A stretch of 64,000 nucleotides of DNA from Hydractinia symbiolongicarpus (Eukaryota > Cnidaria > Hydrozoa > Anthoathecata > Hydractiniidae), in assembly GCF_029227915.1 (NCBI RefSeq), contig NC_079886.1, positions 9,362,001-9,426,000 of the forward strand. The letters run 5' to 3'. The notes beneath the pieces are model-generated. The model saw nothing but the letters and a program-made list of their open reading frames with translations, was not told where the DNA came from and searched no databases. A program made the position numbers and the translations under genes. This document shows, piece after piece, positions 3,240 through 60,250 of the stretch. Position 1 is the stretch's first letter, and each line of letters starts with the position of its first letter.

Positions 3240-6200
3240 TTAAATTACATGCAGCGTGATATCTCTTTTATACTTTCTTTGTATAAATTTTGCAACTAGG
3301 CATTCTAAGGACAGAATTAATATGGACAGAAACACACACGACAACACTAAGCTAAATAAACCGCCTAAAAAGTTAATTCCAATTTCATTTATCTGTTCGT
3401 TTCCACCTTTTTTTGAAGTAACACATTTACTGCTTATCCAAGTTTTTTGTAACGCTATAAGAGTACCATCTTCTTGGTACTTCCGGATTAGATCTGATAA
3501 TTTTGCTTTCAGTGCTGAGCCTTTACGCACTGCTAATCCGTATCCAGCGTCTTTTATCGGTTCACCAGCAAATTGGATTTTACAATCTTCTTCTTTTGCT
3601 ATATAACCAGCTATGACTGGGTAGTCATGGATAATTGCATTGAGTTGACTAGAAATAAGTGATTTAAATAAAAAATACCCTTCTATGTTTGAAGCTTTTT
3701 ATTATTTTTTGAGCAGAATAGACTACTGGAAAACACGTAAAGATGACTACTCTGTTTAACCTCGTCCCTAGGGGGGCATTTACCTTTTTGAACCTAGCGG
3801 TTTAACATAGGCAATAAAACCTGGGGAGAAGAATGTACACTGTGGACTAAACGCAAACATTAACTTATCAAAATACGCATCTCAGTTACTTTATGTTTCA
3901 GTTCGAGGTATTGAATTTAAGAATTTAATTTTGTTAATTAAAGTTGTGAAAAAATGTTTTATTTCCATCTCACTTACCCAGCTTTTAATTTCTCAAAAGC
4001 TTTCTCAGTATTGAGAAAGTTATAGTCCTTCATGAAGTAGTACATTCTGTTCCAATTTGGGTCTTTGCTGTCATGAAACATTTGTGTAAATGCAGAGTTT
4101 TGAATGGTAGCATAAGTAAATGATGATGTTGGTTGAATGATCTGAACATGATATCAAATTGGATCACTTCTTTAATATATATATATTTAATAAGTTAAAA
4201 GAAGAGAAAAAGAATGCACAGAAACTTGCCCGCCGCAACAAAGTTGATACAAATATATCGCATTTGCTGAGTTTTTCTCTCGAACAGACAGAATGTTATA
4301 TATTAAAACGTAAATTCTGTGTGTTTGGACGAGGCAATAAGATAATTGAAGTACAAATAATTAATTTTGGTTAATTTTTTAGTTTAAAATCTTACACAAA
4401 AAGCTAAACCGATTTGAAAAATGACGTTCCGGATCACGACATTTTTTTGTAAACGTGGTGTAAGAGAAATCCGTGAAAATTAATATTAAAAATTTACATT
4501 TTTGTTTTAAAAGAAAAAAGAAATCCCAAAAGTTGTCCGCGAAATTACTTGAAAGGCAGGCTACTCGTCAAATGTAATTTTAGCAAATTTTTATTCATTC
4601 TGAAATTTTCTTTAAAAATAAGAATTCCTTTAAAGAACCAATTCTTTAAATAGGTTCAAAATTATGTGGTTTTATATCGCTTTTAATGACATCTAATTGT
4701 AACACTACCAGTATTCCAAGACCTCATTGAACATTATTAACACCTGTGCATATCGTGAAATTTATTTTCCTTGATTCTACTTCTTGTAGAAGTTTTTTCG
4801 ACGAAAGTTTCTTAATGTTTTTTAATAATTTTTGGTCAATGATCGTTTTCAGAATTTTTTCTATGTTCCATTTAAGTTCCAAGTAAGGACTTTAGACAGT
4901 CCTTACTTGCAACCCTAGACTTCCTTACTTGACATTTTAAGTGGTCTATTACAAAAAACAGTCGAAAACAATGACTAGACTATTCATCGTGTAGCCAAGA
5001 AAACTTACCTTTTTATCTTTAAACCCTGCGATTGGTAAGCTTGTTGTATGTGTAACCTTGTTAGCTGTCATAACTGCTGTATAAGTTGACATAACGATCA
5101 ACATGCAAAGAGAAATTGAGATAGCAGTAATCTTTGTACTTGGGTTAGAAGGTACTAGTCCACCAACAAATCGATCAAACGTTAAGCCGACAAGATATGT
5201 AATGCTTTCTACCCATGGATATGACCATGTCGTTTTTCTAGGATTGCCATATCGTTCAGTTAGCATTAAAATGAAGGATGAACCAAATGTTATACAGAAA
5301 ATTGTCAGCCATAACTGAAAAGACAAGGGAGCAAACGCTTCAACGTTGAAGAAGGGAATTAACTTTGTTTCTAACAATGCAGCAATACCGACTCCTCCAA
5401 CAAGATATGGTTCTGTAAAATCAATCACTTCAGCTCGTTTTGCGTTAATGGTCAATGCAGCTAAGGAAACATCTGCCTTACCATAATACACATCTCCAAC
5501 CATTCCAACCCATTTACCTTTATCTTTAGCACCGTATTGAGAATCTTCAACTATATAGACTTCTGTAACTATGTTCAAATCTTCCTCTATTTTAGCTAAC
5601 ATATCAATGCAATAACCAAGACAGCAATGTGGTTTTCGAACTTTACTGTTACTCATGTTAACATAATCCCAACAAAGTTTGCCAGTTGTGCATGTTTGAA
5701 GGATATGATCATATACATTGCTTTTATGGAAGAATGTAAAAGGTGATTCAATGATCGTTACTACAGTCAATTTCTTTAGTTTATGATGAAGAGGAAAAAA
5801 AGAAAATGCTGTGTCAGCATTTGGTAGAAGTTCAACTTTATTATTTTGACTTTCACCAATTAATAACCATTTGGTACGGTTTGCTCGTGTAAATATCTGG
5901 AAACTCCCATACATAGATGTAACATTTGCTTTTGAAATCACGTCCGTTCTAAAAGACAATAAAAAAACTAAGATCAGAATAAAGCAATGAACAGAGTATT
6001 AAATGCCACAAGGTTTTTTCTTTATAACATAATGCCAAATAATGAAATTGTTTTTGCTATGCCGTATCAAATGAGTTAAGCGTTACCCAGGTTTTGGAAT
6101 ATTAATAATATAATATTTTACCACAAAATGCTGTAATCAAAAGCGTACCATAGTTAAGCGCACCAATTTACTTGTCAAAATTCTATTACCGTTTATAAGT

Positions 6201-31877: not shown

Positions 31878-34800
31878 CTACGTGTACATATATTCGGCCC
31901 AATTTTTTAACTCTGTCGGACATTCAGGATATTTTTGCAAGGTTTCTTTGATTTGAGAGGAGTCTATCAACATACACATTGGTTTGTACTCCTTCGCAAG
32001 TGAATGGTTAGAGACAGATTCTGTGCATCTCAACAATTCTAACGCTATTAAATGTTCATACGCTTTAAATGTGACAGCTTTGTTGAAACTTTGCATTCCA
32101 GTCGAACGCCGTTTAGAATAAGCTTGATATTCTAAAAAGAAATGACAATTCCTGTAGTACAAAGTCACTAAATTTTAAAGCAACCATATTTTACAGGAAT
32201 TTAATTTCACGGATCGCCAAACAAAGAATCAGATTACCCTATCTTTGCATGCGGCGGAATTTAAATTAAACCAACGGAATACACGTTTCCCGAATTACAT
32301 TATTTTCTAATGCATAATTTTGATGCTATGACTTTAAGATTATATTCAGCATTACTGAATTGGTGTTTGTATAAAACCTAATCTGACATGTGAAAATGCT
32401 TTTTTGGTTGTACAAATGTTACGGTCAAAGCCTTTCAATTTTCGACTTTTCAACCCTTAAAACAGTATTGTAAAAATCTATTTTTTTAAAAAATGCTTGA
32501 TTTAAATAATGTTAGCACGATGCTATACAAAATAAAAAAAATAATCAAATGCACCATCTTGTTTTCGGTGTTGACAGTATGAAGGAATTTCCAAAAACTA
32601 AATTTTAGGAGTTTTTTGACCTTTTTCCAGGAGTGAGGTAAAAACAGGAATATTAATAGGAGAAAAACAATCGCAAACAGCTTGCATAACCAGATGACAC
32701 ACAGTTTTGGTTTCCAGAAATCACCTTTATGGCCACGTGAATTGGGGGTTTTAAACAATCCCCGATGCTTACAAAACAAAATATGTATGCGAATAAACAA
32801 GTGTTACGAAACTGCTTACCGTTGAAGATCATTTCAAAATTAAATGGCTGTCCCTCTCGTCTTTCCACCACGTGTTTCGCAGCAATGATTAGACATAACT
32901 CAAGGATAGACAAACCTAAATATCAGGGTTCTTTTTATAAGCATGACATTTATAAGCATCCGTATATGCTTAAATTTCGTCATTTTTTAAACATATGCTA
33001 AGCATTATGTGAAGCCTAAAGAAAATGCTGTGAAGTTTTTATGTTTTTTGAGTAGTCTTCTTTCTATTTTTTATATCTGAATTAAGCAGTACAAAGTGAG
33101 ATCTAAGTTGTAAATTTTGATGTTCAAAATTTATATACAATACTCTTTTTTCGAATAAGCATATTTTGAGCTTGATCATGTATTTTATATAAACATTTTC
33201 CAATAAATCTTTTTGCCATTAAGCATAACCTAAGGAGAGTTTGGAGCTGAAAAAGCCTGTCTTTTAAGAGTTGTATAGCTATTTTAATGGTGGAGGCGAT
33301 AATGTCAATAACTTTGCAAAAAGTGAAAAAAGTTCAATTTATTCTGACGTTCGGCCACTCCGAGAAATAAAAACGAGAAAAAAGTCTACAGAACAGTAAC
33401 AGTGGTATAGCAGTATTGATCACTAGTGAAAGAAGTATAAAGAAAAAAGATAGTTGATGGCGCTAGCATGTATATTATAAACTTATAAAAAGTCTGAATC
33501 AAATTCCCAATTTTTTTAACATTCCAACATTCGCTAATTTAGGGCTACAATATTAATTTCTTTTTCATTTAGAGTTTTGAGCAAGGGCGTTAAAAAATAT
33601 TTTGAAAAGTCCGATTCTAATGACAATTTATAAAAATATCATTCAAGTTTTCAGCAACTTGATTACGACTTCTGCACTGTTCGCCTTAAAATAAAGTGAG
33701 TAGTCCAAAAAAATGACACATCTAAAAATGCCAATTAAAGTAAGGTAAACTCGCAAGAATTACAGTATAAGAATTTAAAAGGAAAACATCATGAAAACAA
33801 CAAACCATTCAAAACAACAGCTTTTGTATCAGTGTGCAATTTTGAGTATGATGTTGAAATGTCAGTTGATGTGATAAACTTGTGTGAGGACGATATGCTA
33901 CATATAGGAAAAATCTAAAAAAAAACATGGCAACCTAGAGTTTAAATTCTAACATTGACTCACCTTATACAAAGCTTGTTTTAGATACTGACAAACACCT
34001 TATTAATTCTAATCAACACACTTCGAAAATCTATTTCTTGCCAGGGTAAACATAAGCAGAAACATCTGCTAACCAGAATTATTTTCATAGAAAGGTGCGG
34101 TAGTTTAATGCACAAAACACCTTAAAAAAAACCACCACAAATTTTAAGTTTTTTTAGCCCTTCGAACATGGATAAGTGGACACTAGAACGGAAAGGTAAC
34201 CCTTTGGAGTGACCACTAAACTGGTATTATAACCACAACGCTGGTACAGCACTTAATATAAAAGCACAATACTGGTATATAATTCATTCACTTTCTATGC
34301 GTAAGCTCAGTGTATCACTTCGTTTTTAAGTAACAGAACGGTCATATACTTCCGCCTAGGTAAAGTACAATTTTAAGCAGAATCGAATCTGCAACCTTTC
34401 GGACGTAGGCGAGAACCCTAACCATGAAGCTACAAACGAAATATAAATGTTTGCCATGTAAAGATACCATAAGGGTCTTAGAAAAAAATAGGTCGTATTA
34501 TTGTTCCAAAATTGAATTAACATTTCAAATTATCAAATTATTAAAACATACCAATAGCTTGACAACATCACCGATATCCTTTTTGATGTTAAAATGTTTT
34601 TCAAATAGATTGGTAACTGTCGTTTCATCAAGAACATTCTAAACAAACACGTGGTAAAGAAGTAATCTTTTTTTTATCAAGGGAACTGTGAGCATTAAAT
34701 ACTGTGAAGTTGATGTTTTTCAGAATTAATTTTACAGATACTAATATAAAATCAAATTAATGTTGTTGATACTTAATAGTTTGCTTTCTTATTTGTATGA

Positions 34801-37800
34801 GTAAGTACAACCTGGTGAATAGTGTTGAATATACCTGTTTACACAAATCAAAAGTGTAGATAATACAACTTAAACTTCCAAAAAATGCTTAGAAAAATCA
34901 ACTGCAAGATAGGAATTATTAAATTCAATTTTTGGGGGTAATTTGACACATTGCGATTGTGATCAGTTACTGCAACATAAATCAACATTACATTAAAACA
35001 AAAGTATCTCAATGAATGTTAAGGTAAATATACCTGAATATGTCGATTCCATCTACTTTGAAAGACTGTGCAGGAGAATGTCTCAGGAAGCATTAGTAGT
35101 TCTCTAAAAAACACTGTTATTTAAAGATCATAACTTACATCCGTAACTACGTTTCTGGTCAAAACACAAGTTATTGTTACTTTCACCATTTTTAGAAAAA
35201 ACGACAAAATAAATTTAATAAAAACAACTTAACGAGAGAAAAAATATCACCTGGTATAATCCAAATAATCTGAAAACTGAAAATTTGGAAATGTTAAAAT
35301 TGATCGGTGTGAGTATCTTGATTTGACTCGCTTTTCCAGCAACTCGACAACATCTAATCGACACGTGATACCAATAACACATAGAGGATTCTGTTTACTT
35401 TGTGCAATATCAAAGAGATTATACAGAAGAGATTGATTCTTGTGGTAAGTGAAACAGTCAAACTCATCCATCACAATCACAACGGATTTAGATTTGCCAG
35501 AATCTAACATTTAAAAATAATATTTAGTTCAAGTTAGGAAAATAAAAGATTACATCGAAGCAGTTTTAAAAAGTTAAAAAGTTTTAATGGCCACGAAAGC
35601 AGGCCTGACAGTTTTTTTAAAAGTTAAAGCCATTTTTAATGCTGATAATCAAATATATTATAATTGCAGACTTTATTCAACATTCCGGAAATAGATAGAA
35701 ATACGATTTACAATTCTTTTCTCCCGTAGTTACAAAATGGAAGGTGACTGGAGGCTGGAAAATGATACTAGCTTTTAAAATTTATATAAATGCTTTTCCT
35801 TATAAGCAAACTAAAAGGCTGAAAATAAAGGTTTTGTTTATTTCATTAGTTTTCAATAATATCTAAAGCTAAATTCCCGCTGAAATAAAGTTTTGCGTTG
35901 CGGATCGTTTTAACCATAAATGTTGCAGTCGCAAAATGACGTACACTCACAATCAGTTTGCCACAGGATGATATACCATTTCAATAGCACAAACACAACA
36001 AAAAATCACAAGCGGCTAGTGATTTTTTGTTCTGTTTAAACGTAGCTCAATTTCTTACAATAATAATCCCTGCAAGTATAGTGTGACGATAAAAGACATT
36101 GCATAGTTTAAATAGACGATACAGAGAAAAAGGGATATTTTTTGTTGCACTACCAATTTTTAATATAATTTAGAAGACTGTTATATTTATCCACTTACCA
36201 TCTTTTAAAGCGTCCAGTATAAATGAGAGATTATCTGAAAACGAGCCCTGAAATAAAAAGATTGATCTCAGCAACATATTTAACCAGCTTGGATAACTTC
36301 ATGCAACTACAGTAACTTTAGGACATACAAACACACGATCACCGACTACATTTTCAAGTTCTAATTGTCGCGCCATGTCTTGTAGTGCAGCTCGATCATC
36401 TGTGTGAATTAAACCTGAAATTTAATGCAAACAAAAACAATTATTATACAAACTTAAAATGATTTTAAGATCATTTATAAATAAGATTTCCAACTATTTT
36501 AACCAAATTTTAAAGACAAAGATAGAACTTTTTTGTGGGTTTGCCTTATAAAAATTTCGTATTATACTTTGAAAGCTTGGAAGGACATTTTAATTACTTC
36601 CCAAAAACTTACGTCCTGAGTAAAAACAATTTGGCTTCATACAAAAGAGCCTAAAATTTTGTCTATGAATCTTTTCATTTTTCTGAAAAATCTCGATCGG
36701 TTTTTTGACTTAGAAGTTTTGGTAATTATATTAATTAATACATGACATCGTGTATTAGAGAAAATGAGGTGCTGTTTTAAGAATTTATCAAGGTATGTGG
36801 TAATGTAAATATGTTTTTACCTATCCAGTTTGTTATTTTGAACAAATTCACGAATATTATTACTTACCCGGATTATCATACCCGGGATAATATCCGGATT
36901 ATCATTTATATCGGCAATTGCTTCAGATCATCTTATCGATGAGGTCATAATTCCGCATAATTTGTTAAACTTTGAAGGCTTATATATCTCCCAAAAGATA
37001 AAAAATTCGAAAAAATTAAAAGATTCATGTACAACTTTTAAAGCTAATCAACTTGTTTTTTCGTGGGAGGTAAGCTATAATTTCAAAAGCACAGTAGGAA
37101 TATTTAAAAAAAAAATTACCCTACTCTTTGTAAACATGTGAAAAGACAGAACATCAAAAGTAAAAACTCACCACTGAGAAAAAGATAGAAGTAGTCAGTA
37201 CCCAGTTTTTGTGACACATCTGATAGAACTTTACGTACTAACTATAAAAAAAGTATACGGGCTAACCAATTACTTAATTTTTTTTATCAAAATTTTTATT
37301 TTTATTAAAATTATTAATGGGTTGGTCCTTCATAGTCCACGGTTCTGACTTTTAGAACTGTATATAAAATAAATGTTTATACACCATAATTCTAATAATA
37401 ATACAGAGCTAAGTAAAGAATATTTTAACATCAAAATATTTTTATTGTTATTATTGATAAGACCGACTTTTCCCTATTTATTTTGTGCCTGGTACATACA
37501 GAAACAGATTCAAAGCAAAAAGTTCATAAAAATGCTAAAAATACGTTTTTATTATATAGAAATTGCGTATCATGTTAAATTAATAAATAACACAAGTTTT
37601 TTTGACAATAGTTATTATTATTTTTTTGAGAGGGTACAAGAGTCCTAATTTTAATTTTTCTCCTTGTGATTTTAAATAGTCAAATTAGCCAGCCAGGACT
37701 GTTTGGCCTGTTAACTGAACAGATAGTTCAAATTACTAAGTTCAAATGTAGGAGCACGAAACCTTCTATAAAAAGTATCCATATAAGTGTTAACCTTCGT

Positions 37801-47050: not shown

Positions 47051-50000
47051 ATGCATAGACGCAGTAGCATTGATAAAAACACGCATTTACTTTCTCATCA
47101 TTATATTTTGTACAAACGAAGATGGTTCATGTTAGCAGTTGTAGTTATGTTTAATATCTCAAATGCAATGGTTAGTGAAAATCCTTGCGTAAAATTTATA
47201 ATTGCTTGTACAGGTTTTCAATTTTTGTATAACTTTACACAACCAAACCTAGTGATAAAAGGTGAGCCATCATTCTTATGCATACTTCTAAGAAACGAGC
47301 TCAGAAGCTGAGCTGTTAATTCTTGTTAACCTCAGTTCCATGGGAAGTTTGACCAGCAGAGCCAATGTTGTATATCAATTTCTAAACATCAGACCATATT
47401 GGTAAGAGGGTAGTGATTGCTTTTGCTTACTTGAAATAAGCTGTGTCATTATTAGTTCATAAAACAAAGTATAAGAGGTTCTTAAATTTTTCTTCACGTT
47501 TTTTTCAACGCATGTGTTTTTTTTTTTAGATTTGGATATCATTTGCGCCAGTTACAAATCTCACAGCATCATATTTTCATATATCAGAAACGACTGTAAA
47601 TTGGTTTTCGTTAGTGTATTTTCTTGCATTTGTTCCATTTTGTGGTTTGTCTTGGTGGACAATCGAGACCCTTGGTTTCAGATTTTCAGTATGTTCTTTT
47701 TTAAACAGTTAAAACTTAGTTGAAGATTGCTCTCAATCATTATAAAGAGTCATTTTTAAACTTTTTTAGTTATATTTTGTAATATCTATGATATGAACAG
47801 TTAATGCTCGAAGAAAGTTCGGAAAATTTGTTTTAAATCTTGAAATTATAGATACGCTGATCTCTATACCATACCCTTAAAAAAACTCTATAGCAGCACT
47901 GCAATAGGGATTTATAATAAGTTGGGATGTTATAGGTATTTCAAAACCTTTTCAATTTGTGGTTAATTATTTTGATAAGGTTTTGCAGGCTTTTTGGTTG
48001 ATTTGTACCCACAATAAATAAAAAAGTTAAGCCTTTGAATCAGTACTTAAACATAGGATTTTAAATAACAGGCACAGCTCTTTCAGCCTCACCAGAATAT
48101 TGTAAATGGAGATATAATGGAAACTGATGAAGAATAAAATAACTGTATTTGCAATTTTAACATTTCTTTGTAAAATGTCTCTGCAAAATTACAAACCGGA
48201 AGCCACTAATTCCCTCTTCTATCAACAGCAGCAGCAGCATTTTGGCACCAAATGTTTTCTCATGCTTTGCAGGTTATCTTTTTTGAAAACTCGTAAATGT
48301 TAATAGAGATAGATAAACCCACCACTATATATTAATACCTATAAATATACAAACATATAATAAACATAAATGAACTGCATTGTTAGAGTCAGACAGTAGG
48401 ATGTTAACATTTTTAACAGAGCAAATAGTTGTTTAGTAACGCAGTTTGTTAACTGTCTGGATTTTGCAAGCAGGTAATGCATATTTTCAGGTATTCTGAT
48501 TGGCTTAGCACTCTTGACGATGGGCAGATATTGAGTAGTATTGCCCGTCATCAAGAAAAATAGTAGCCTAAAATGTAAACAAGCACGAAAAAACAATTTT
48601 TAAGAAGCATTGGAAATGATTATATATCTAACTTTACAATACATTTATCAATAAAAATATTTTCATAGGACAGAACCAACAGCAATGTCAAGTTTAATAC
48701 TGTTAAAATAACCATTCAGCAAAATTCTGTCTGGATGCTTCCTCAACATGGCTACAATCGTGGACAAAAATATTGAGACTAAGGCAGTTTTTTACTCATT
48801 ATCTAAATATGGATAGTGATGTTTTAGAAGGGCCAGCTATGCAGATCAAGACAGATTGGGTAGTGGAGGCTATTAGGAAATTAAGTCCTGCTAATCAGAT
48901 TATAAAGAATGGTGCTATTCTGAGTGAGTGGCAATCGAGTGTAATAGTAAATTGTTTCAAGGGCAAGGGTGATGCATTAGAAAAAGGTGACTATAGAGGT
49001 TTAAAGTTGATTGATCAAGTAATGAAAGTTATTGAAAGAATGATTGATGAGTTACTTAGAGAAAGAACTGATATAGATTAGATGCAAAAGCATTTAGGAA
49101 AGAGAAAGAATCTCTATTTTGCCTTTGTAGATTTGAGAAAGCTTTTGATAGAGTGCCATGTAAAGTTATTTAGTGGGCTATGAGAAAATTAGGTGTGGAT
49201 GAGTGGCTAGTTATGATGGTACAGTCTATGTACAGCAATGCTAGAAGTTGTGTCAGGATTAACGATTCACTTAGTGATGAATTTAAATGTTGGTGTACAT
49301 CAGGGTTTTGTACTTAGTCCTTTGTTGTTTGTTCTAGTCTTAGAAGCGCTGTTGATGGAGTTCAGAACAGCTTGTCCATGGGAGTTATTGTATGCAGATG
49401 ATTTGGTTCTCATAGTAGAGTCATTGGAAGAATTAGTTGAAAATTTTTGAGAAGTGGAAGAAAGGATTAGAAGAGAAAGGGCTAAGGGTGAACACAGCAA
49501 AGTCTAAAGTCATGATTAGTAGCATTGCAGCCCAGTGTGACCTTGTAGTTGGAAAGTGGCCTTGTGGAGTTTGCAGGAAAGGGGTTGGTAACTCAATTTT
49601 TTGTCAGACTTGCAAGCATTGGGTACATAAGAAGTGCAGTATTATTGGTGGAAGTTTAAGAACTGACATTCAGTTTGTATGCAAGCGTTGCAAAGGTGAG
49701 ATTATAGAGAATGAAGTATTTCCAGCTTTAATAATTTACAACAGTGGCTCGTTAGAGATGTTGAGAAGTTCTGTTACTTAGGTGATATTTTGTTGGGCAG
49801 TGAAGGGGGTGTTGGAAGAAGTGTTACTTGGAGGATATAGGTTCTGCTTGGAAAAAGTTCAGAGAGTTACTTCCTTTGTTGACTAGCAGAGTCTTGTCGA
49901 TTGAGGTAAAAGGTAGGTTGTATGAGGCCTGTGTAAGAACTGTTATGTTGTACGGTAGTGAGACATGGGCAGTGAAGCAGGAAGATCTTGACTGTTTAGA

Positions 50001-53000
50001 AAGAAATGATAAATGAGAATGGTTTAGGTGGATGTGTAACGCCAGTCTGAGAGACAGAAAGAGTTCAGATGAGCTAAGAAGCAGGCTATCCGTAGAATTA
50101 AAGATGTTATCCAGATAAGAAGATTGAATTGGCCGAGGCACTTGGAAAGAATGGAGGAGGATAATTAGGTAAGAAAGTATAGAGACTTGATAGTTTCTGG
50201 GGCAGAGCCCAGATGCAGATCGAGAAAGACTTGGCAGGAGGTTATAAGGCCAGACTTGATACAGAGGAAGTTGAGTTTAGATCTAACACAGTCTAGATCA
50301 GATTGGAAGAGGGTCATTAATATACCCCGTCCAACCCGTGCTAGCAAGGAAAATGGATGTTAAGCCGATAATGATGGTGGTGAGTCAAACAGTCAATGCT
50401 CTGCAGCCGGCGGGCTGCAAAGTCGCTACTTTGGCACACAAGTAGGCCAGGCAGTGAGGGTTTAAAAGTTGCTAGTCATTCACATCAGGGACCACGAAGG
50501 CCCCAAAATTTGTGATGAATGGCCTTGCTGACATCAGCAACAATTAGAACATTTTAAGAATTTCGTATTTGCCAAATAACCTAAGATCTGAAGTCCAAGT
50601 CCACTCTGAACATTGACAAGTTCAAGATGCGTGAATCTAATATAGAATTAGCCTGCGCAATTATTTGTGGTGGCGAACTTCGAAATTTTTTGTCTTGTAC
50701 CAACATATTGTGACCACGATTGTAGTTAACTAGCTACATTGTCTAGCTACATTGACTAGCTACATTGACAAAATTTTTTGTCTTGTACCTACATATTGTG
50801 ACCACGATTGTAGTTAACTAGCTACATTGTGGATAGAAAATGATGATCTGATATCCAGTTTCATCAAAATACTAAATACAGAACAACGGTTTTATAACAA
50901 ATGGCTCTCCCTAATTTCCGACTGGTTTCTTCAGCTTTTTGGTTACTCAGTCAGTATAATAGTTGACGAAGCCCATGTTCAATATTCACTGTAACTAAAT
51001 TTTAGTTGCACATTCAACTTTTTACATTATTTTGTGAGTATTGAACATCATAATGTTTTGTTTATAAGGAGGATTTTAAGGATTTATTCTATAGGGACTT
51101 TCGAATTCTGCATAGAATGTTTCTGTTTTTAGACAGAACTATTTTAAATTTTCACATCTATTGTGTTAACGAAAGAAGTGAATTATATTATTTTAAGAAC
51201 ACTAAACCGAACTTCTTATTTTTTGTCTTTATTTAACTTAGACAGTTAACAAATATAATACTAACCGATTACCCCATGCTGTACCAAAAAAATCGCCTTC
51301 AGTCATTGCACTTACACCTTCGGCAATATTTTGTGGTACAGCCTGGGGTAATCAGTTAGTATTGTATTAGTGTTTTTTGTAGACAGGTTTGAAAGCCTAT
51401 CTAATATTTCACAACAGCTTCTTTCATCCATAATCAAAAGTAATGTAAAATGTAACAAAAAAGTTTTAGTTTCTTTTACACTTAATTCTTGATTTTGATA
51501 AGAATTGTGTTCTATTTTACCAAATGGAACAAGACTTTTTTGTGTGTATAAATAAAATATACACAATTTACAGGAAAATAAACTCTTTATTATTGTTTTA
51601 TGGTTCTACATGCTATATCACAAAATTTGTTTCACTTATATTTACTCTGTCCTTTTTTAGGTTATTTTGGGTAGCATTCTCAACGCTGTTGGAGCCATTA
51701 TTAGAATAGTTGGTGTCCAATGCTTTTTAAATCCAACCACCAAATTTATTGTAGTACTGACTGGTCAAGTTTTGTCTGCATCTACACAACCTTTAGTTTT
51801 ATCTATGCCAACGAAACTAGCAGCTTTATGGTTTGGAGATCACGAAAGGACAATAGCAAATACCATTGCATCAATGGGTATTGTAGATTTAAAATGTCAA
51901 CATTGTCATTGCAGATTTCTTTATCTAAAATGTGTTTTAGCGCTATAATTTTTAATCAAGAATTTTTACTTCAATTTGATTTTTTAAGATACATGCTAAT
52001 AAAAATGCAAGTACCATACGCCTAAATTGTGTAGAAGAAGTTGCATCGCAAAATTCTATTTATCTTTTTTATGATTCAGGCTTTTTTGTACTGTTATTTT
52101 CTATTATTTATACATCCACATTTTATTTTTTTGATGACTCATAAAGGGCAAAATCCAGTTATAAGAACAAAGATAAACCAAGTTTGAAAATTCTCTTTCA
52201 CTGCATTTTTAGTCCATTGGAGCAGCTTGAAACATTGGTCTAAATAATGCATAGAACCATACCTTTTCAACAAATTTTTAAGAAAATATTTGAGCTAGAA
52301 CGTTTTTTGACATTGGCTTTGCTTTGGGAGAAGTTACTAATTTTGGTACCAGGTGAACCCTCTAACCCTTGTAGGTGAAGACATTAGCTTTTTCTATATT
52401 GCCAAATTTGAGTCAAAATATTAGGATGCGATGTATTTGCATCTGTTATTCGTTACATTGTGGTCTATACTCAAAAATTTTGTTAAACTCGTGATGTTGC
52501 TTGTTATTTTGCTTATTTATACATCGGCATTGCTGTTCAAACAATTCCATTTTTTGTGGCGAACAGAAAGTGAATTAAAGAGTTTTTTCTTCTTCATTTT
52601 AAAAGATGTTAGGATTGCTACAGAGCCTGAAATTCTCTTTTGTTTTGGTGACAAGAATTAGAGTTCAAAACTTTAACATCCTTTGATTACTCATATATTT
52701 TATATTATTTACCTATAATTTATTGGCACATATCTTGCATCAAACAATTTTTTAAAGTGTCATCTATTTAAATTTTAGCCAATCCACTAGGTGTTTTATT
52801 GGCCAATGCAGGTTCTGTTGCCTTGGTTACAAATCCTGATGAAATTAAATTGATGGTAGGTTTTGCTAAAAGTTATTAAGTTTGTTATGTGTTTGGTAAC
52901 AGTCACTTGTACATACTGATAACATCACCAGCAACTGAAACTTTAATAGATTGTAAATTAGATATTTGAACTACAATCAGTGAGAAAAAATGTTAGCACA

Positions 53001-56000
53001 AGGCTGAAAATTTTTACCTGTTTCTTAGATGCATACAATTTAAACTTGTTAATCTTTACGGCGGACTTAGGACTTTTTTTTTATTTATTTTGGGTTAGTT
53101 GATTAAATCCAAACTCCGAAGCTGTAATAATTATTGCTGACATCACTATAAGTTTTTGCAATTTTTTGGTACTTTGTAGGACCTGACTGGATAATTCTGT
53201 ACTTCTGGTATGTCAGGAAAAGGGATTAGCCTATTCTAAACACTGCTTAGCATACCTATGTATATATAGAAGTTGCATTCTCCAGGCTCCTGCCTGTAGA
53301 GTATTGGCAATTTGACTTTTCCAACTTTAAAAACTGCCTTTGTGCCAAATATTTTGTTACATAGCAAAACTACAAAAAAACATTGTACAACATTTTGATG
53401 TGTTGGTCTTCTTAAAGGCTTACTGTTAATAACACCAATTTTAGGATTTCTATTTTGTAATAAATTTTCTGTCAATAACTTTGACTTTTTTAATACATAC
53501 TTTTATAGCTTTTACTCTTTAGCTTACATGACTAAGTGGTGGTAACATATTTTGTCATTTTGCTTAAGGTGGTTGTATTTGCTATTCCAGCTGTTATTGG
53601 TGCTTTAATGGCAATGCTTGGGTTTTGGTCAAGTAAGCCACCTACCCCTCCTTCATCGTCTGCCATGGAAGAACCTGTGTCATTTTTTGTTGGCATAAGA
53701 GCAGTATGTTAGGTCTTTATTTATATTGTTTTTCTTAGTAAGTTTGTCCAACCACGTATTGTCAACAGGAATTTGTTTTGTTATTCATAATAAGTTTGTA
53801 TTTAATTATGTATTGCCATGGTTAGATTCCTTAAACCATTAGACATTCTAACTAGTAACATGGATTTATTTTTCCTTCTCGGACAAGTTGTTGTTATTGT
53901 TATGCTCATTTCTTGTAGGTGCTGAAAAATAAGCAATTCCTTCTTCTTGCCCTTGCAGCTGGTTGTGGTATTGGTGCGTTTAGTGCACTCACAACTATTA
54001 TACAACAGCTGATATGCAAACAAGGTTACAGTGATGTAAGTAATCCAAACAATTTTTTGTCAGTTTTGTGAAACTGTAAAGTATTAAACATACTGCTGAT
54101 TTTATTTGTCTTTTGGCTCAACTTTTTATACAGAAACGTTAAAATCAATTTGAAGGTGTGCAAGGCCTTGTAATGTATATATGTTATCAAAAATAACATC
54201 AACACTAACTAGAAAAAAATATCTTCCAATCTTTTTTTGCTGTTTGTTAGTGTAAAAAAAATAGGGGAAAATTTCGTACCAGCAAAACTCTTTTTATTAT
54301 CAAGTGTCTCAAAGGATCATTGAAACCAGCAGTCTTTGCTTACTTCATGATAGCAGTAAAAATATCATAAGTGGTTTAACATCAACACTAACAAGAAAAA
54401 AATATCTTCCAATCTTTTTTTGCTGTTTGTTAGTGTAAAAAAATAGGGGAAAAATTTTTACCAACAAAACTCTTTTTATTATTAAGTGTCTCAAAGGATC
54501 ATTGAAACCAGCAGTCTTTGCATAGCAGTAAAAATATCATAAGTGGTTTAACATGCGGGTTTGCACATTCCAAGCATCTCAAATTTTGCAATATGGCTAG
54601 TATAGGATTTATACATTGTTAATTTAACTTTATGATATTACAAGCATCACTTTAATGTAAATGTACTGTACTAGAGTCAGGACACCTCACATCGTAAGCA
54701 CATATCCACCATGCTATTATGATCTTTCGCAATAGGAAAAAATTTGTGATAACATTTTTGGTTAAAATTTTAAGATCGCGATGTCCATGTTGGACTGTTT
54801 GTTTTTTAACTCATAATGTTGTTGGTTATTTAAACCGTTAAAAATGTTTACTTTTTTTAAAATTCATTATGTGCAACTTCTAGCATGCAAAATCAGATTA
54901 AAGATTTTTAAAACGGCGAATATGAATGTGTCTTCCCTCTTGTCAAATCATTATTGTCTGAAAATTATCTTTACTTTCTAAACAAAGGGAATTATTTTTA
55001 CATGCTTAAAGAATTCATGGCGATTCATTCCTTAGTTCTATATTCTAGTTTTCATATCTTCTGAATTTTTTTTAATCGTATTTGATAGATAGTGTTATTT
55101 TTCCTGATTTTAAAATTTCTGATAACGTCACGCAAAAATGTTGATGGCAGCAACAAATAATTATGGTTATTATACCTGTTTTATACTACAACTGTGCAAG
55201 GTTTGTGACTATTCTAAATCGTTTACTAATATAAGAACCCTTTGGTTGATTTGCACTGAAAACGAAAATCAAATCACAAAGCCTTTTAGTAAAGTATTGA
55301 AATTCGTAGAATCTGCTTCAGCTCTCTGACTTTGCCAAGCAAATAATATGTGATTCTGAGAAAAAACATATAAGGTTATTAAAAAAACCGAATTATAATC
55401 TAAAATCTCCATTTTCTAAATAACACTCTGAAGTGGGTTACAGAGGTTTATAGTGCAATATTATAGCTTACAATAAACTTTGACTTTGTGCATTGATGGT
55501 TTTGTTGTTTTCATATTTTTTATTTTTACCCCACAATTTCCAGTATATATCGGTCAATCAATTAATTATTGCAAATAATGTACTTCCTTAGGCTGTGTAA
55601 ACTTATTTTTAGCTATTTGTATTTTTTTCTTTAGTTCTTTTAGTTCCTGCTCAAGTCTCCTTATATGTTCATCCTCATTTTCAATTTGCTGACATTTTTT
55701 CTTTTTTCTTCTTGCTATCCACTGCGCACTTTCCACAGTAATGGCTATAGCAATTAAACAGCCAGCGATAATTGTAGTATACATGATCAACCCACCATCG
55801 CTGTCGTCGAAGGCAGTATGAAATGCTCTGGTTGTAAATTTAGTTGGCGACACAGGAGAGGTGTATTTTGTTTTGACATTATCTTCAACCAACTTGAATA
55901 TATCCTCTAAAGCGTTGTCCTCATTTACCATACATCTTCTTAGTTTGTAAAATGACGAAATGTACATGTAGACTGGTACTTCACCTGATATAATCCGTTC

Positions 56001-59000
56001 AACTTTAAAGTCGTTTGATAAATACACACCAGCAATATTGGCATCAATCAAACCAGCTTTAGCTTTCCCAATTTTAACTGCATAGAATAAATCCTCATAA
56101 GACGATTCAATTTTTGCTTTCCCATTCAGCTTCTGTTTAACCATATTTTTAGCTGTTTTGGTTTCCAATATGGCAATGTTTTCTCCATCCAGCTCGACCT
56201 GTTTACTAATCTCTTCAATCAACGTTGCTGTTATCATTGCCATTATTAACATGCCAAATATGATCCAAACGATACAGAATATTCTAGTGATAAATTGTTT
56301 CGGTACTTTATCACCATACCCTACTGTAGCAATCGTAACCAGACTAAACCAAAAACTTTCCCACAGCCCCTCGCCAAAAGATTTGGGGAAAGCTTCATTT
56401 GTGCGATGTTCAAATAACCACACCAGCGCAGCCATCAAGATAGTAGCAACTACTACGAAGTGAATCAAGATAAAGCAATCCTGAATTCCAGTCCAAAGTT
56501 TGACGAGAAGGAGAAGTTCCCTCGTTCTTACAATGACAACCATGTTCGTTTTCAAGAATATTTCATTTCTGAAGTATTTTGGAGAAAAGTTTGCATTGGT
56601 AGATGATGCGATAACAGTGATGCCATCAGATGGTTTTTCCTGCATTAAATTAAAAATTTCATTTCGTGTGTAATTATCATAAACATGGATCTTTGATATC
56701 CTGGTTCGTAGACGTTTATATGTTTCGTTATAATGGTTGCACCTTCTTTTAAACTCAGCAATCATATCAAAAATTATACCTTCATTTTTATTTGAGTTGT
56801 GATATGGTGGGTGGTGCCATGTTCTCAATGTAATATTTTCATATTCAAATTTTTGTTGTGCATCTGATAGTGTTAGCAATGCGCACATGCAGAAATTGAA
56901 AAAAAAATATGTTAGTTTTAAAAACATCTCAAGTAAAGATATCCTATATGTAGTCTCAGCTACCTTGTGTAGGCATTTTCTTAACTAGACAGCTGATATT
57001 GTATTGAGGGGTTGTTCCCTTTTCTTTATCTTATTAATTTAATTTGTAATATGTTTTGCTCTATATAATATAACAACCAAAGGCTATGCAAATTTTCACT
57101 GAAATGGCAAGCAGTGTTTTGGTTTATTGAAACAAAACAACCTTTATTTTTTATCAAATGCTTTTTCAATATATGATTAGTGCTTTTTAAAACAAGTTAT
57201 TCATAAAACCTAAAAACCTAACAGTTAGTAATAATTTCATTTTTGTTGTTATTTTTATTTATTCTTTGTTTCTTTTTATTTTTTACTTCTCTAATTTCTT
57301 TAGTATAGCAACATATTTTTTGCAGTGTGTGCTAGAAAACACAACTTTTGTTATAGAATCCTTGTGAGCATGTAAAAATTTAAGATAAAAGGAAATTTTA
57401 AATGTTCCCTAACAACATGCATCATATTTATCTGTTTAGCAAGCAATTTTTTTTTTTGCACAAGGATTACAATAAAATAATTTTGATGTTCCTCTTCACT
57501 GAATAATTTTAAAAATTGGTTCAAATGGTTCACATTATTGAATTTATATTTGAAGAATTTTAAATTTAATTATGCTGCATAAATTATGATGTCATGTCAT
57601 ATTTAAGTAATAGCAAATTTTGACATTTTCTGTCATCAATAATTTTAGACCTGTTAAGGGATGTGCATTCAAACTTTATCAATGCACAGATATTATAAAA
57701 GGTGAATTGATTAACATAAATTTTTTTGCCAAAATGACACTTGTTTGCTTCTTAATTTTTCTGCCTGATTTCCACAATAATTCATTGTGTGACTATGTTA
57801 TATAATGATTTTTAGGAAGATTTGTAATTATTAAAAGCTAGTCGACATGTCAGCAACTGCATCATCCATCTATGTTGTTCTTGTCTAATGAGTATCACGA
57901 TATCTTCCTGATCTGTTGTTTTCTATTTTAATTTTATTAATTCTCTCCTCTAATTTTCTTCTCTGTTTATACTCAACTAAAAATTGCTCCATGTCAGCTT
58001 TAAGATCATTACAAGCGCAAAACGTTTTGCAAGGAATATTACTTCATCACCATATCCGACTGGCCACATTGTTATTAGACAAAACTAGTTGCCTGAAGGA
58101 CCTGACGAAATGACTTAAAAGTTCTTTGGGTTTCTTTTGTGAATCAGCAGCCATGTCAGTGTAGCCATTAAAACAGTTACAACTAACACAAAGTAGATCA
58201 AAATAATTAAATTTTAAATTCCGGCGAAAATTTTTATGGTTAAGAAGATGTTTCATCACCACAGCAGCCATTAGGGTCATTAAGATCTAATTTAAAAAAT
58301 TAATAACATGATTTGATTTGATCTCTCCGATCTCACCCGTTTATTGATTGGTTGGTTCTATGTATATCAGTAAGAACTACAGGTCTTGCGAAACTCTGCA
58401 AACATTTCATAATACCTTGTGCCATGTCTTTGTTGTTGTCGTAATTGTCTTGTTTTGTCAAGCGTCAAAAATAGATTAAAAATTACATGATACCAAATCA
58501 GGGCCATAACAACTTCTTCGCATTGAAATTTCGACGTAAGAATATTCAAATATCTATATTTGAATATTTTTACGTCGAAATTTCTATTAGTGTTGTTGTT
58601 TTGCTTATTTCTTTTTATTTATTTATTATTATTAATTTTTTAAATTGTCAAATGTTTTTTTTTTGTAACTGAACTTTTGTAAAACTGTTTGTCAGAATTT
58701 TTATAAAAAAGTTTTGTAAAATTTGATAATGTGCGTATAAATGTATTTAAAATCTACTAAGAAACCTAAGAAAGAAAGTTTTATTAAAAGAAACTAACTT
58801 ATTGTTTCCGTGTTTATGTAGCTACAGGAACATATTTTTAGACAATAGCTGGTGTGTGCGGAGCCATGGTGATTGTTGGTGGTTTTATTGGTGCTGGCTT
58901 GTCAGGAGTATATATCGATAAAACAAGAAATTATATCACATTGGCAAAACCTATGGTTTTGTTTTTAACCTTATCATCTGCTGCTGTTGTTATTGTATGT

Positions 59001-60250
59001 ACACTGTGTATCTTCTGTTCATATTTTCATCGAGCTCTATTTCCTACCAGGATTGACCTTTATTCGGTTTTAATAAAATAGAGCGCCTGCGATTGTGGAC
59101 AACATGTAGGATGTCTTTTTAGTGTTAGATAAAGCATTTTTATTAGGTTATTAGATTAAAAATGTTAGGTTACTTGGTTTAATCCTAAATTTTAGTACGT
59201 AATAGTTAGCAGTGTTTATGTGGCCAAAACATCTATAAAATGTAGCTACCTCTATTTTATTCAAGTACAACCTATCAGAGAAAAGCTTCCAATGTGATTA
59301 CAAGGAGCAAATTCTTTTCTTTTTTTAACCACACCCCCCCCCTCACCCCCAGATCACCACGATTCAACGTTTTGTTGCATATATTTACCAATATTTCTTA
59401 TTTAGTTTACATCAATCAGAAATCAACCCGCTCTAGTCATCATTTCCTTCACTTTATTTGGTTTATTTGGTCTCGGAGTGTTGCCAGTGTTTTTGGAGTT
59501 AGGTGTGGAGTGTACCTACCCTGTTGATGAAGCAACGTCATCTGGTATATCATGGATGACTGGGTAAGTCTTGAAGAGTCCTTTCACTTGTGTTGCTTTA
59601 TCAGGTTTTCATTGTTTTCATGAGACCAATTTTTTTAATTGACTTGTTGTTTACTGAAAAGTCTTAATAATGACATGCAATAGAAACCTTTTTGTAATGA
59701 TGATTCTTGTCAGCTAAAGTTTTTATATAAGGATAAAATCCACTCATTGTCATATGACTCAGTAAAACCGAAAATTAAGGAAAATAAGAAGAAAATCTTG
59801 AAAACGTGGAAAAAGTTTTGTGGGAATTTCTGTTGAAAACTGAAAAAAATTGACCGTTATCTAGAATGAATTTTAGCAAGGATAATACATTGCAATGGAT
59901 TCTTATTTTATTGTGTCACCATTCAAGCAAGTCTAACTCATTGTATGCAATTTAGACAAGTTGTTGGTGCTGTTATGATGATAGGTGGTTTAGCTGCCGC
60001 ACCTCATTTAAGTAAAAGCCAAGTTGAACATTCCACATGCGTGTCAGCCAATACAAGTACGTTGGACCCAATTGATTTGACACTACCTACAATTGTTATG
60101 GTAATTATTAGTTCTATCTCCGCTCTTGCATTTGTTATATTTTTTGAGACTCCTTATAAAAGATTAAATGCAGAGAAAATCGCCGAACTGGAAGAAAGCA
60201 CTTCAACTGATGAAAGACCGATAATTGACCGTCATACAAATGTGATATAA
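47051..60250 (+). CDS. SLC49A3: SLC49A3 (MFSD7)-type major facilitator transporter, 9 exons
   Basis: Twelve-span MFS membrane protein of the SLC49 (FLVCR) family; other members carry heme or choline, but the SLC49A3 substrate is not settled. Exons: 47051-47170, 47530-47688, 51661-51877, 52779-52855, 53569-53703, 53919-54035, 58842-58994, 59406-59563, 59956-60250. All junctions GT-AG with matching phases; product 476 aa. The N-terminal RRW then hydrophobic segment, NWFSLVYFLAFVPF (span 2), WFGDHERTIANTIASMANPLG (span 4 region) and KPPTPPS after span 6 match SLC49A3 rather than FLVCR1/2. Span 11-12 region ends FFETPYKRLNAEK, also typical. Intron 2 (about 4 kb) contains a dead LINE; intron 6 (4.8 kb) contains an antisense intronless receptor gene. 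Confidence is high for family, good for subfamily. Confidence 0.9.
48773..50370 (+). mobile_element. Decayed non-LTR retrotransposon (LINE) in SLC49A3 intron 2
   Basis: Frames shift several times, so it is inactive. The order is: reverse transcriptase start (ANQIIKNGAILSEWQSSVIV, then GDYRGLKLIDQVMKVIERMI), a motif like FVDLRKAFDRVP near 49130, HQGFVLSPLLFVLVLEAL, the catalytic YADD at about 49390, then a PHD-type zinc finger (CGVCRKGVGNSIFCQTCKHW, 49560-49620), a thumb-like YGSETWAVKQEDL near 49960 and a terminal basic domain. The 5' endonuclease part is missing, as usual for 5'-truncated copies. Same strand as the host gene. It ends in a TGATGG-rich tail near 50370. Confidence 0.85.
50683..50830 (+). 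repeat. 88-bp tandem duplication with CTAGCTACATTG units
   Basis: AAATTTTTTGTCTTGTACC and the following 40 bases are repeated 88 bases later (50683 and 50771). Between the copies CTAGCTACATTG is repeated three times. In SLC49A3 intron 2. Confidence 0.7.
54195..54551 (+). repeat. 183-bp tandem duplication in SLC49A3 intron 6
   Basis: AACATCAACACTAAC and about 170 more bases recur after 183 bases (54195 and 54378). The second unit is shortened by a small deletion near its end (TTACTTCATGA missing). Recent by its high identity. Confidence 0.8.
55566..56927 (-). CDS. Intronless GluR0-like receptor channel with K+ selectivity filter
   Basis: Predicted ligand-gated potassium channel of the plasma membrane, 453 aa, one exon, no amino-terminal domain. 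Residues 1-23: signal peptide. S1 half of the ligand core: about 31-135 (NITLRTWHHPPYHN, GIIFDMIAEF). M1: 148-172. Pore helix and filter: 186-206 with TIATVGYGD, the K+ channel signature (DNA 56310-56327). Second pore span: 212-237. S2: about 252-355 with an Asp in LIDANIAG where iGluRs have the ligand-binding Asp/Glu. M4: 380-403. Then RRKKKK and a coiled coil (411-443). The S1 Arg of TIxxxR is absent (SSTNANFSPKYF), so the ligand is probably not a free amino acid. Layout is that of cyanobacterial GluR0 plus M4, as in rotifer AvGluR1. It lies wholly inside intron 6 of SLC49A3 on the other strand. AG precedes the ATG directly. Confidence 0.85.
   Translation of the reverse strand: MFLKLTYFFFNFCMCALLTLSDAQQKFEYENITLRTWHHPPYHNSNKNEGIIFDMIAEFKRRCNHYNETYKRLRTRISKIHVYDNYTRNEIFNLMQEKPSDGITVIASSTNANFSPKYFRNEIFLKTNMVVIVRTRELLLLVKLWTGIQDCFILIHFVVVATILMAALVWLFEHRTNEAFPKSFGEGLWESFWFSLVTIATVGYGDKVPKQFITRIFCIVWIIFGMLIMAMITATLIEEISKQVELDGENIAILETKTAKNMVKQKLNGKAKIESSYEDLFYAVKIGKAKAGLIDANIAGVYLSNDFKVERIISGEVPVYMYISSFYKLRRCMVNEDNALEDIFKLVEDNVKTKYTSPVSPTKFTTRAFHTAFDDSDGGLIMYTTIIAGCLIAIAITVESAQWIARRKKKKCQQIENEDEHIRRLEQELKELKKKIQIAKNKFTQPKEVHYLQ
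58525..58584. repeat. 29-bp near-perfect palindrome
   Basis: The arms 58525-58553 and 58556-58584 are inverse copies with one mismatch and only a 2-base centre. The sequence is AT-rich with GACGTAA in each arm. It lies in SLC49A3 intron 6, about 260 bases before exon 7. Such a long, nearly loop-free palindrome is unstable in most genomes and could be a tiny foldback element. Confidence 0.8.

Follow-up and report, generated by a model that had tools for sequence, protein, structure and literature searches.

A Hydractinia gene predicted to encode a glutamate-receptor-fold channel subunit with a potassium-type filter and an altered ligand site

Canonical animal ionotropic glutamate receptors (iGluRs) normally lack the GYG filter of potassium channels, and they carry an amino-terminal domain and a SYTANLAAF motif. 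What, then, is made by a gene of Hydractinia symbiolongicarpus that appears to combine the ligand-binding and membrane parts of a glutamate receptor (GluR) with a TVGYGD pore? The gene lies in a 64,000-nucleotide (nt) stretch of contig NC_079886.1 (assembly GCF_029227915.1, forward-strand positions 9,362,001 to 9,426,000), which we call the window and whose own numbering we use. We conclude that its product is probably a GluR-fold, K+-filter subunit of a ligand-gated hyperpolarising channel, with a ligand that is probably neither glutamate nor glycine. A sequence-only reading of the same DNA had proposed a potassium-conducting, inhibitory ligand-gated receptor with a glutamate-receptor fold in a cnidarian-like animal. 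The source is indeed a cnidarian, and the K+ filter, the fourth membrane span (M4) and, as a prediction, the GluR-type fold all stand; K+ conduction and inhibition stand as proposals, and a glutamate receptor finds no support, since an arginine central to the ligand site is replaced by asparagine.

The longest open reading frame (ORF) of the window runs on the minus strand from an ATG at 56927 to a stop ending at 55566, and encodes 453 amino acids (aa). This is the frame first proposed, to which we add the strand. The ORF is complete, has in-frame stops ahead of it and forms a single exon; when the window was simulated 60 times with a first-order Markov model, no ORF starting with Met exceeded 162 aa. 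By hydropathy, the N-terminus is signal-like and three spans follow, with their best positions at residues 151-169, 216-234 and 380-398. A signal-peptide-like N-terminus (residues ~1-23, 56859..56927, hydrophobic and predicted helical at 2-20) is followed by the S1 half of a ligand-binding domain (LBD; residues 27-134, 56526..56849), assigned by structure prediction and profile comparison and holding four N-glycosylation sequons at residues 31, 67, 85 and 113. Hydropathy and predicted structure then place M1 at residues 152-173 (56409..56474); Pfam, Protein Data Bank (PDB) matches and predicted structure place the pore helix and TVGYGD selectivity filter at residues 184-206 (56310..56378); and translation, hydropathy and predicted structure place M3 at residues 212-241 (56205..56294), ending in AMITATLIEEI. 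The S2 half of the LBD, with its acid D295 kept, occupies residues 250-355 (55863..56180) by structure prediction, profiles and alignment. Next come M4 (residues ~380-400, 55728..55790) and a helical, coiled-coil-like tail (residues 401-443, 55599..55727), the two predicted as one continuous helix from 380 to 443.

The filter itself is residues 201-206 (56310-56327), within the TIATVGYGD first noticed, at residues 198-206, and the late span read as M4 is borne out by hydropathy and the predicted helix. The signal peptide and coiled-coil tail of that reading hold as hydropathic and helical likenesses, to be graded signal-like and coiled-coil-like. The signal-like N-terminus and the order of the parts would imply an inverted topology, in which the pore loop enters from the cytoplasmic side. 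No SYTANLAAF-type motif (as given in a figure legend of PMC3483616) was found at the end of M3, and the window protein has AMITATLIEEIS in its translation; nor was an amino-terminal domain found ahead of S1, which is predicted to begin at about residue 27.

The gene had been taken for a single odd case, and it proves to have a family of at least six cnidarian genera. A first protein search with the ORF product gave 67 matches: P0001-P0011 are of the window type, 17 of P0012-P0030 list a bacterial solute-binding domain, P0013 and P0021 are of a coral type, and the rest are mostly K+ channels. Profile searches, which scored 7991 and 7995 candidates sharing most words and gave lists crowded by K+ channels, found relatives in Stylophora pistillata (five of them on contigs of one length, 1.33 Mb), Pocillopora meandrina, Pocillopora verrucosa, Oculina patagonica, Acropora millepora, Porites evermanni and Porites lutea. 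The relatives form two clades, both present in Hydractinia. Clade A contains the window protein and relatives with the same parts, Hydractinia being its only named source; clade B contains the coral proteins and a second Hydractinia GYG protein, P0069 (LOC130647392, 794 aa predicted), which has CUB (Pfam E 1e-12) and Ig I-set (8.8e-9) domains ahead of S1 and an M4-like span.

A VGYG filter is present in 34 of the 36 relatives examined, P0073 and P0088 being the two without an intact one. A hydropathic span more than 60 residues past the filter occurs in 32/34 cnidarian-type and similar filter-bearing relatives and in 1/80 bacterial ORFs (L068, 89 residues past the filter, perhaps inside S2); these ORFs were fetched by the motif TVGYGDK[VTA]P and are the best 80 of at least 581 candidates. 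The alignment used below, A5, has 31 rows, namely 29 clade A and B rows plus P0093 and P0099. Its VGYG[DE] count of 29/29 owes something to choice, since P0073 and P0088 were excluded (34/36 is the choice-free figure); P0076, P0082, P0086, P0087, the bacterial-like P0092, P0094 and the matches P0095-P0098 were also left out. P0093 and P0099 (~610 aa) depart from the two-span type of bacteria: each has a TVGYGDKVP filter, a Lig_chan domain and, late in the chain, an M4-like span. They possibly come from protists.

Is the protein more than a potassium channel? Pfam covers only the pore of the ORF product (Ion_trans_2 1e-16, Lig_chan 7.2e-9, Ion_trans 5.7e-7), and therefore S1 and S2 rest on structure prediction and profile comparison. 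That Ion_trans_2 is the best Pfam match, and that K+-channel pores make up most of the best matches in a single-protein PDB sequence search, is what one would expect of an ungated or otherwise gated K+ channel with S1/S2 as a mere scaffold (a leak), or of a plain two-span K+ channel. We consider such a channel quite improbable, because S1 and S2 fold as a GluR-type binding domain in both models, including a control made without bacterial rows, and the predicted LBD fold matches the cores of GluR0 and AvGluR1. The M4-like span and the conserved S2 acid also count against it, as does the A5 profile, which among the best 60 of its 367 matches finds GluN1 from S1 to M4 (87-421, E 1.9e-11) and reaches K+ channels across the pore only. 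A failure of S1/S2 to fold, or a plain two-span channel lacking a periplasmic-binding fold, would have overturned the sequence-only reading; prediction and the GluN1 match point the other way. The predicted fold counts equally against a voltage-gated K+ channel, which we rejected.

Profiles split by half refine this picture. For S2, clade A matches bacteria at E 6e-9 (probability 95%), clade B matches bacteria at 3e-13, and the two clades match each other at 4e-13. For S1, clade A matches clade B at 2.6e-7 (89%), and the matches to bacterial S1 are 1.5e-4 (25%) for clade B and 6e-4 (12%) for clade A, whose S1 profile has 7 rows (P0006, P0007, P0009 and P0010, short or cut, were left out). Wrong-half controls gave 0.25 and 2.7e-3. 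S2 is therefore firm, and the clade A S1 is tied weakly to bacterial S1, mainly via the coral proteins.

Two matters weigh against our interpretation, and both concern S1. By the profiles just described, S1 appears to be the weakest part of the clamshell assignment. In addition, the NCBI model of the gene (LOC130622709) has 359 aa only, beginning MKEKPSDG. It is 100% identical to the ORF product across 79% of the ORF, and its start can be reproduced by joining the ATGAAG at 56785-56780 to an exon start at 56639, minus a 140-nt GT..CAG segment (56640-56779, minus strand) that the model, judging from the sequence, apparently treats as an intron. The NCBI protein would thus be the ORF minus that spliced segment, and constant splicing of the segment would cost the protein its signal peptide and half of its S1.

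The short NCBI protein also fits a decaying or non-expressed copy, as do the neighbouring tandem copy, already broken, and the position of a single-exon gene apparently within an intron of another gene, with FLVCR-like exons on the other strand. We hold decay to be very unlikely, given that no stop interrupts the 453 codons, that relatives in clade A have the same set of parts, and that there is a homologue, P0001, which is 88% identical, begins at the same Met, is 3 residues longer (456 aa), aligns across 100% of the ORF and so keeps the whole frame. Bacterial contamination was considered and rejected, because the ORF sits between FLVCR-like exons of the opposite strand; the 28.8 Mb contig that carries the protein, the M4-like span and the coral relatives also count against it.

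What might such a receptor bind? In A5, the S1 column of the Arg that holds the α-carboxylate has N113 in the window protein, within the NFS sequon at 113-115. The clade A S1 alignment is unsure by about one position, and the neighbour is F114, hence there is no Arg either way. The column is Arg in 1/10 clade A rows with a residue there and in 13/18 clade B rows, but not in P0069. The S2 acid that meets the α-amino group is Asp or Glu in 29/29 clade A and B rows (D295 here). With this carboxylate-binding Arg replaced by Asn, a glutamate receptor finds no support. Because the Arg is missing while the amino-group acid is kept, neither glutamate nor glycine is likely as the ligand, and an amine, the end of a peptide or some other small molecule is the more probable candidate. 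Lost amino-acid-binding residues have been reported for other cnidarian receptors (NMDA-Cnidaria), in the part of PMC6307864 drawn on here.

A straightforward functional copy of AvGluR1 or GluR0, that is, a K+ receptor gated by glutamate-like amino acids, would agree with the predicted match to the cores of those two proteins and with clade B, where the Arg is common and the S2 acid is kept in 18/18 rows. It is nonetheless improbable for this gene, in view of N113 (or F114) and of the absence of the Arg from 9/10 clade A rows and from P0069.

The same losses might instead mark an obligate or regulatory partner that no longer binds a ligand and functions only as part of a heteromer, for example with LOC130647392, or a silent subunit. 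Both proteins occur in one species, clade A mostly lacks the Arg, and between the M3 Trp and the first S2 strand its linker falls 5-6 residues short of that of clade B (30 residues in 11/11 clade A rows; 35-36 in 17/18 clade B rows and 43 in the remaining row). The filter and the S2 acid, which a silent subunit would not need, are conserved, and we regard a partner role as rather unlikely. A further difference within the family lies in a cysteine pair with one member in S1 and one in S2, C63 and C332 in the window protein, where a disulfide is suggested by the alignment. In clade A, with 2 incomplete rows set aside, 6/9 rows have both cysteines, 3/9 have neither and 0/9 have one alone; the three rows with neither form one subclade, and the loss therefore counts as about one event. 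In the stretch examined, 15/18 clade B rows have both and 3/18 have the S1 Cys only.

Returning to a ligand-gated K+ channel, four subunits would assemble into a channel of the plasma membrane, and the gene product would be one such subunit, laid out like an iGluR less the amino-terminal domain. Extracellular S1 and S2 would form the clamshell and M1-P-M3 the pore, with M4 and the helical tail completing the subunit. Closing of the clamshell on its ligand would pull M3 open, and K+ efflux through the K+-channel filter would hyperpolarise the cell. K+ selectivity is inferred for the window protein. The passages relied on here (PMC12226733, PMC12332018, PMC13099474) call AvGluR1 and GluR0, which share the filter and the fold, K+-selective or K+-conducting.

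How did such a receptor come to be in cnidarians? A pore-only tree (72 rows, 91 columns, 13 of the rows K+ channels; the bootstrap had not settled) recovers clade A (11 rows) and clade B (17 rows) each as one group (93/99 and 99/94) and does not join them, with 31/69 inner branches open, deep forks among these; by itself it speaks neither for nor against a plain K+ channel or a pore of K+-channel origin. In a pore plus S2 tree of 54 rows, A and B stand together against 28 bacteria plus P0093 and P0099 with support of 99/97. The grouping is retained (99/95.7) in a 55-row tree of pore and S2 without M4, without P0069 and with other bacteria drawn, where the cnidarian clade is placed among the sampled bacteria (95/90); that tree contains no canonical iGluR, and apart from the cnidarian proteins just two of its eukaryote-like rows, P0093 and P0099, combine filter and M4, one of the two having a long branch. 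The bacterial rows (28 in the 72- and 54-row trees, 30 in the 55-row tree) come from the 80 ORFs. Of the 18 rows that clade B has in A5, the 72-, 54- and 55-row trees take in 17, 13 and 12, respectively. Clade A has 11 rows in the trees, the fragment P0068 and the NCBI duplicate P0002 being left out, and AvGluR1 is not among the rows. The family may have come by transfer from bacteria, or it may descend from an old eukaryotic GYG receptor. A pore swapped in from an animal voltage-gated K+ channel is not favoured, as the pore signature GYGDKVPK is shared with bacterial GluR0-like proteins (alignment A1).

The window protein is a variant of the GluR0/AvGluR1 kind whose ligand site is altered, and the family is wider than the sequence-only reading supposed. 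With GluR0-type bacterial proteins it shares a TxVGYG filter in a GluR-fold channel; it differs from the GluR0-like proteins (Group 1 of Ger et al. 2010; 79/80 of the bacterial ORFs fetched here lack a late span) in having M4 and a helical tail after it, in being eukaryotic, and in belonging to a clade that has mostly lost the Arg. Glutamate and further amino acids activate AvGluR1 of Adineta vaga, according to the relevant part of PMC12226733; the Arg of that binding site is missing from the window protein. Clade B proteins (Stylophora LOC111320784, Acropora millepora LOC114971148, Hydractinia LOC130647392) have the same layout, GYG filter and M4-like span, but mostly keep the Arg (13/18) and have a longer M3-S2 linker, LOC130647392 adding CUB and Ig; in A5, the identity between the Stylophora protein P0013 and the window protein is 19%. 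The canonical iGluRs (NMDA, AKDF, epsilon) share the LBD-transmembrane layout with M4, and the window protein differs from them in its GYG filter and in lacking both the amino-terminal domain and SYTANLAAF.

Ger et al. (PMC2950845, in the portion used here) placed the combination only in bacteria, as far as they could determine. A metazoan iGluR survey (PMC6307864), whose main text contains the word potassium 0 times, mentions no GYG filter in cnidarians in the sections covered, and the same holds for the covered sections of a eukaryotic iGluR phylogeny that treats cnidarian iGluRs (PMC12226733). According to a Hydractinia single-cell study (PMC12464821), terms for glutamate-receptor signalling are enriched in one type of neuron; the sections covered do not name genes of this GYG family. 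Across the portions of the open-access literature covered, we found no report announcing K+-filter GluR proteins in cnidarians. Deposited names may make the family easy to miss: clade B proteins are called 'uncharacterized', 'unnamed' or 'hypothetical' or bear potassium-channel names. P0086 of Stylophora pistillata, a clade B-like protein of 369 aa for which hydropathy shows three spans only, is deposited as 'Potassium voltage-gated channel subfamily F member 1'.

In the current view, glutamate receptors of the excitatory kind arose from K+ channels to which a binding domain was joined; one rotifer receptor is the animal intermediate that the pertinent part of PMC12332018 names. The coral and Hydractinia proteins offer natural test cases in which to study how each of three features, K+ selectivity, M4 and the specificity for a ligand, is kept or lost, and Hydractinia, among the family's hosts, is a tractable colonial animal. 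If functional, the protein would add an inhibitory channel opened by a ligand to a phylum in which the study of fast inhibition has just begun; a 2026 paper (PMC13335744) deals with chloride channels of the ligand-gated type in a cnidarian. The coral cousins of the Hydractinia gene hint at an overlooked kind of fast inhibitory receptor. Going further is tentative, and we doubt that all of it will hold: the family could be an overlooked cnidarian class of GluR-fold K+ channels with at least two clades, giving fast ionotropic inhibition by K+ efflux instead of Cl- influx, in which the window clade switched its ligand from amino acids to an amine or a peptide end and the CUB-Ig form of Hydractinia suggests gating by cell contact or at such contacts.

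The surroundings of the gene add a few observations. Exons resembling the FLVCR/SLC49 transporters flank it on the plus strand (51661-60250), two identified by PDB match (51661-51945 to FLVCR2, E 3.3e-6; 59406-59564 to FLVCR1, E 6e-4) and the others by eye; with such exons on both sides and on the opposite strand, the GYG gene appears nested in an intron. Past its stop by 41 nt, an AATAAA (55519..55524, minus strand) is a possible polyadenylation signal, or a chance match in DNA of ~29-31% GC. Just upstream lies the decayed tandem copy (57968-58252, minus strand), which is interrupted by stops and extends from M1 to the pore, reading MWPVGYGDEV. A tblastn search with the ORF product matches 58001-58249 (40% identity, E 6e-11), the wider interval being the union across relatives, and a tail-like stretch is visible by eye just downstream of the copy.

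Farther off, about 50 kb away and on the same strand as the GYG gene, are fragments of an NMDA-type receptor gene (3240-5998). The segment at 4949-5998 has a canonical S1, TINAKRAEVIDF (PF10613, 2.3e-24), a pore without GYG, and GluN3A as its best PDB match (E 2.7e-28); 3240-3698 looks by eye like an S2/M4 exon and gave no Pfam match. ORC4-like fragments on the minus strand at 31878-32174 and 35247-35510 match ORC4_C (2e-7) and AAA (2e-4), respectively, the ORC4 reading of the second being by eye. At 48707-49781 on the plus strand, a fragment resembling a reverse transcriptase by eye (no Pfam match) is followed by a PHD finger (1e-6), and the whole is probably a retroelement remnant.

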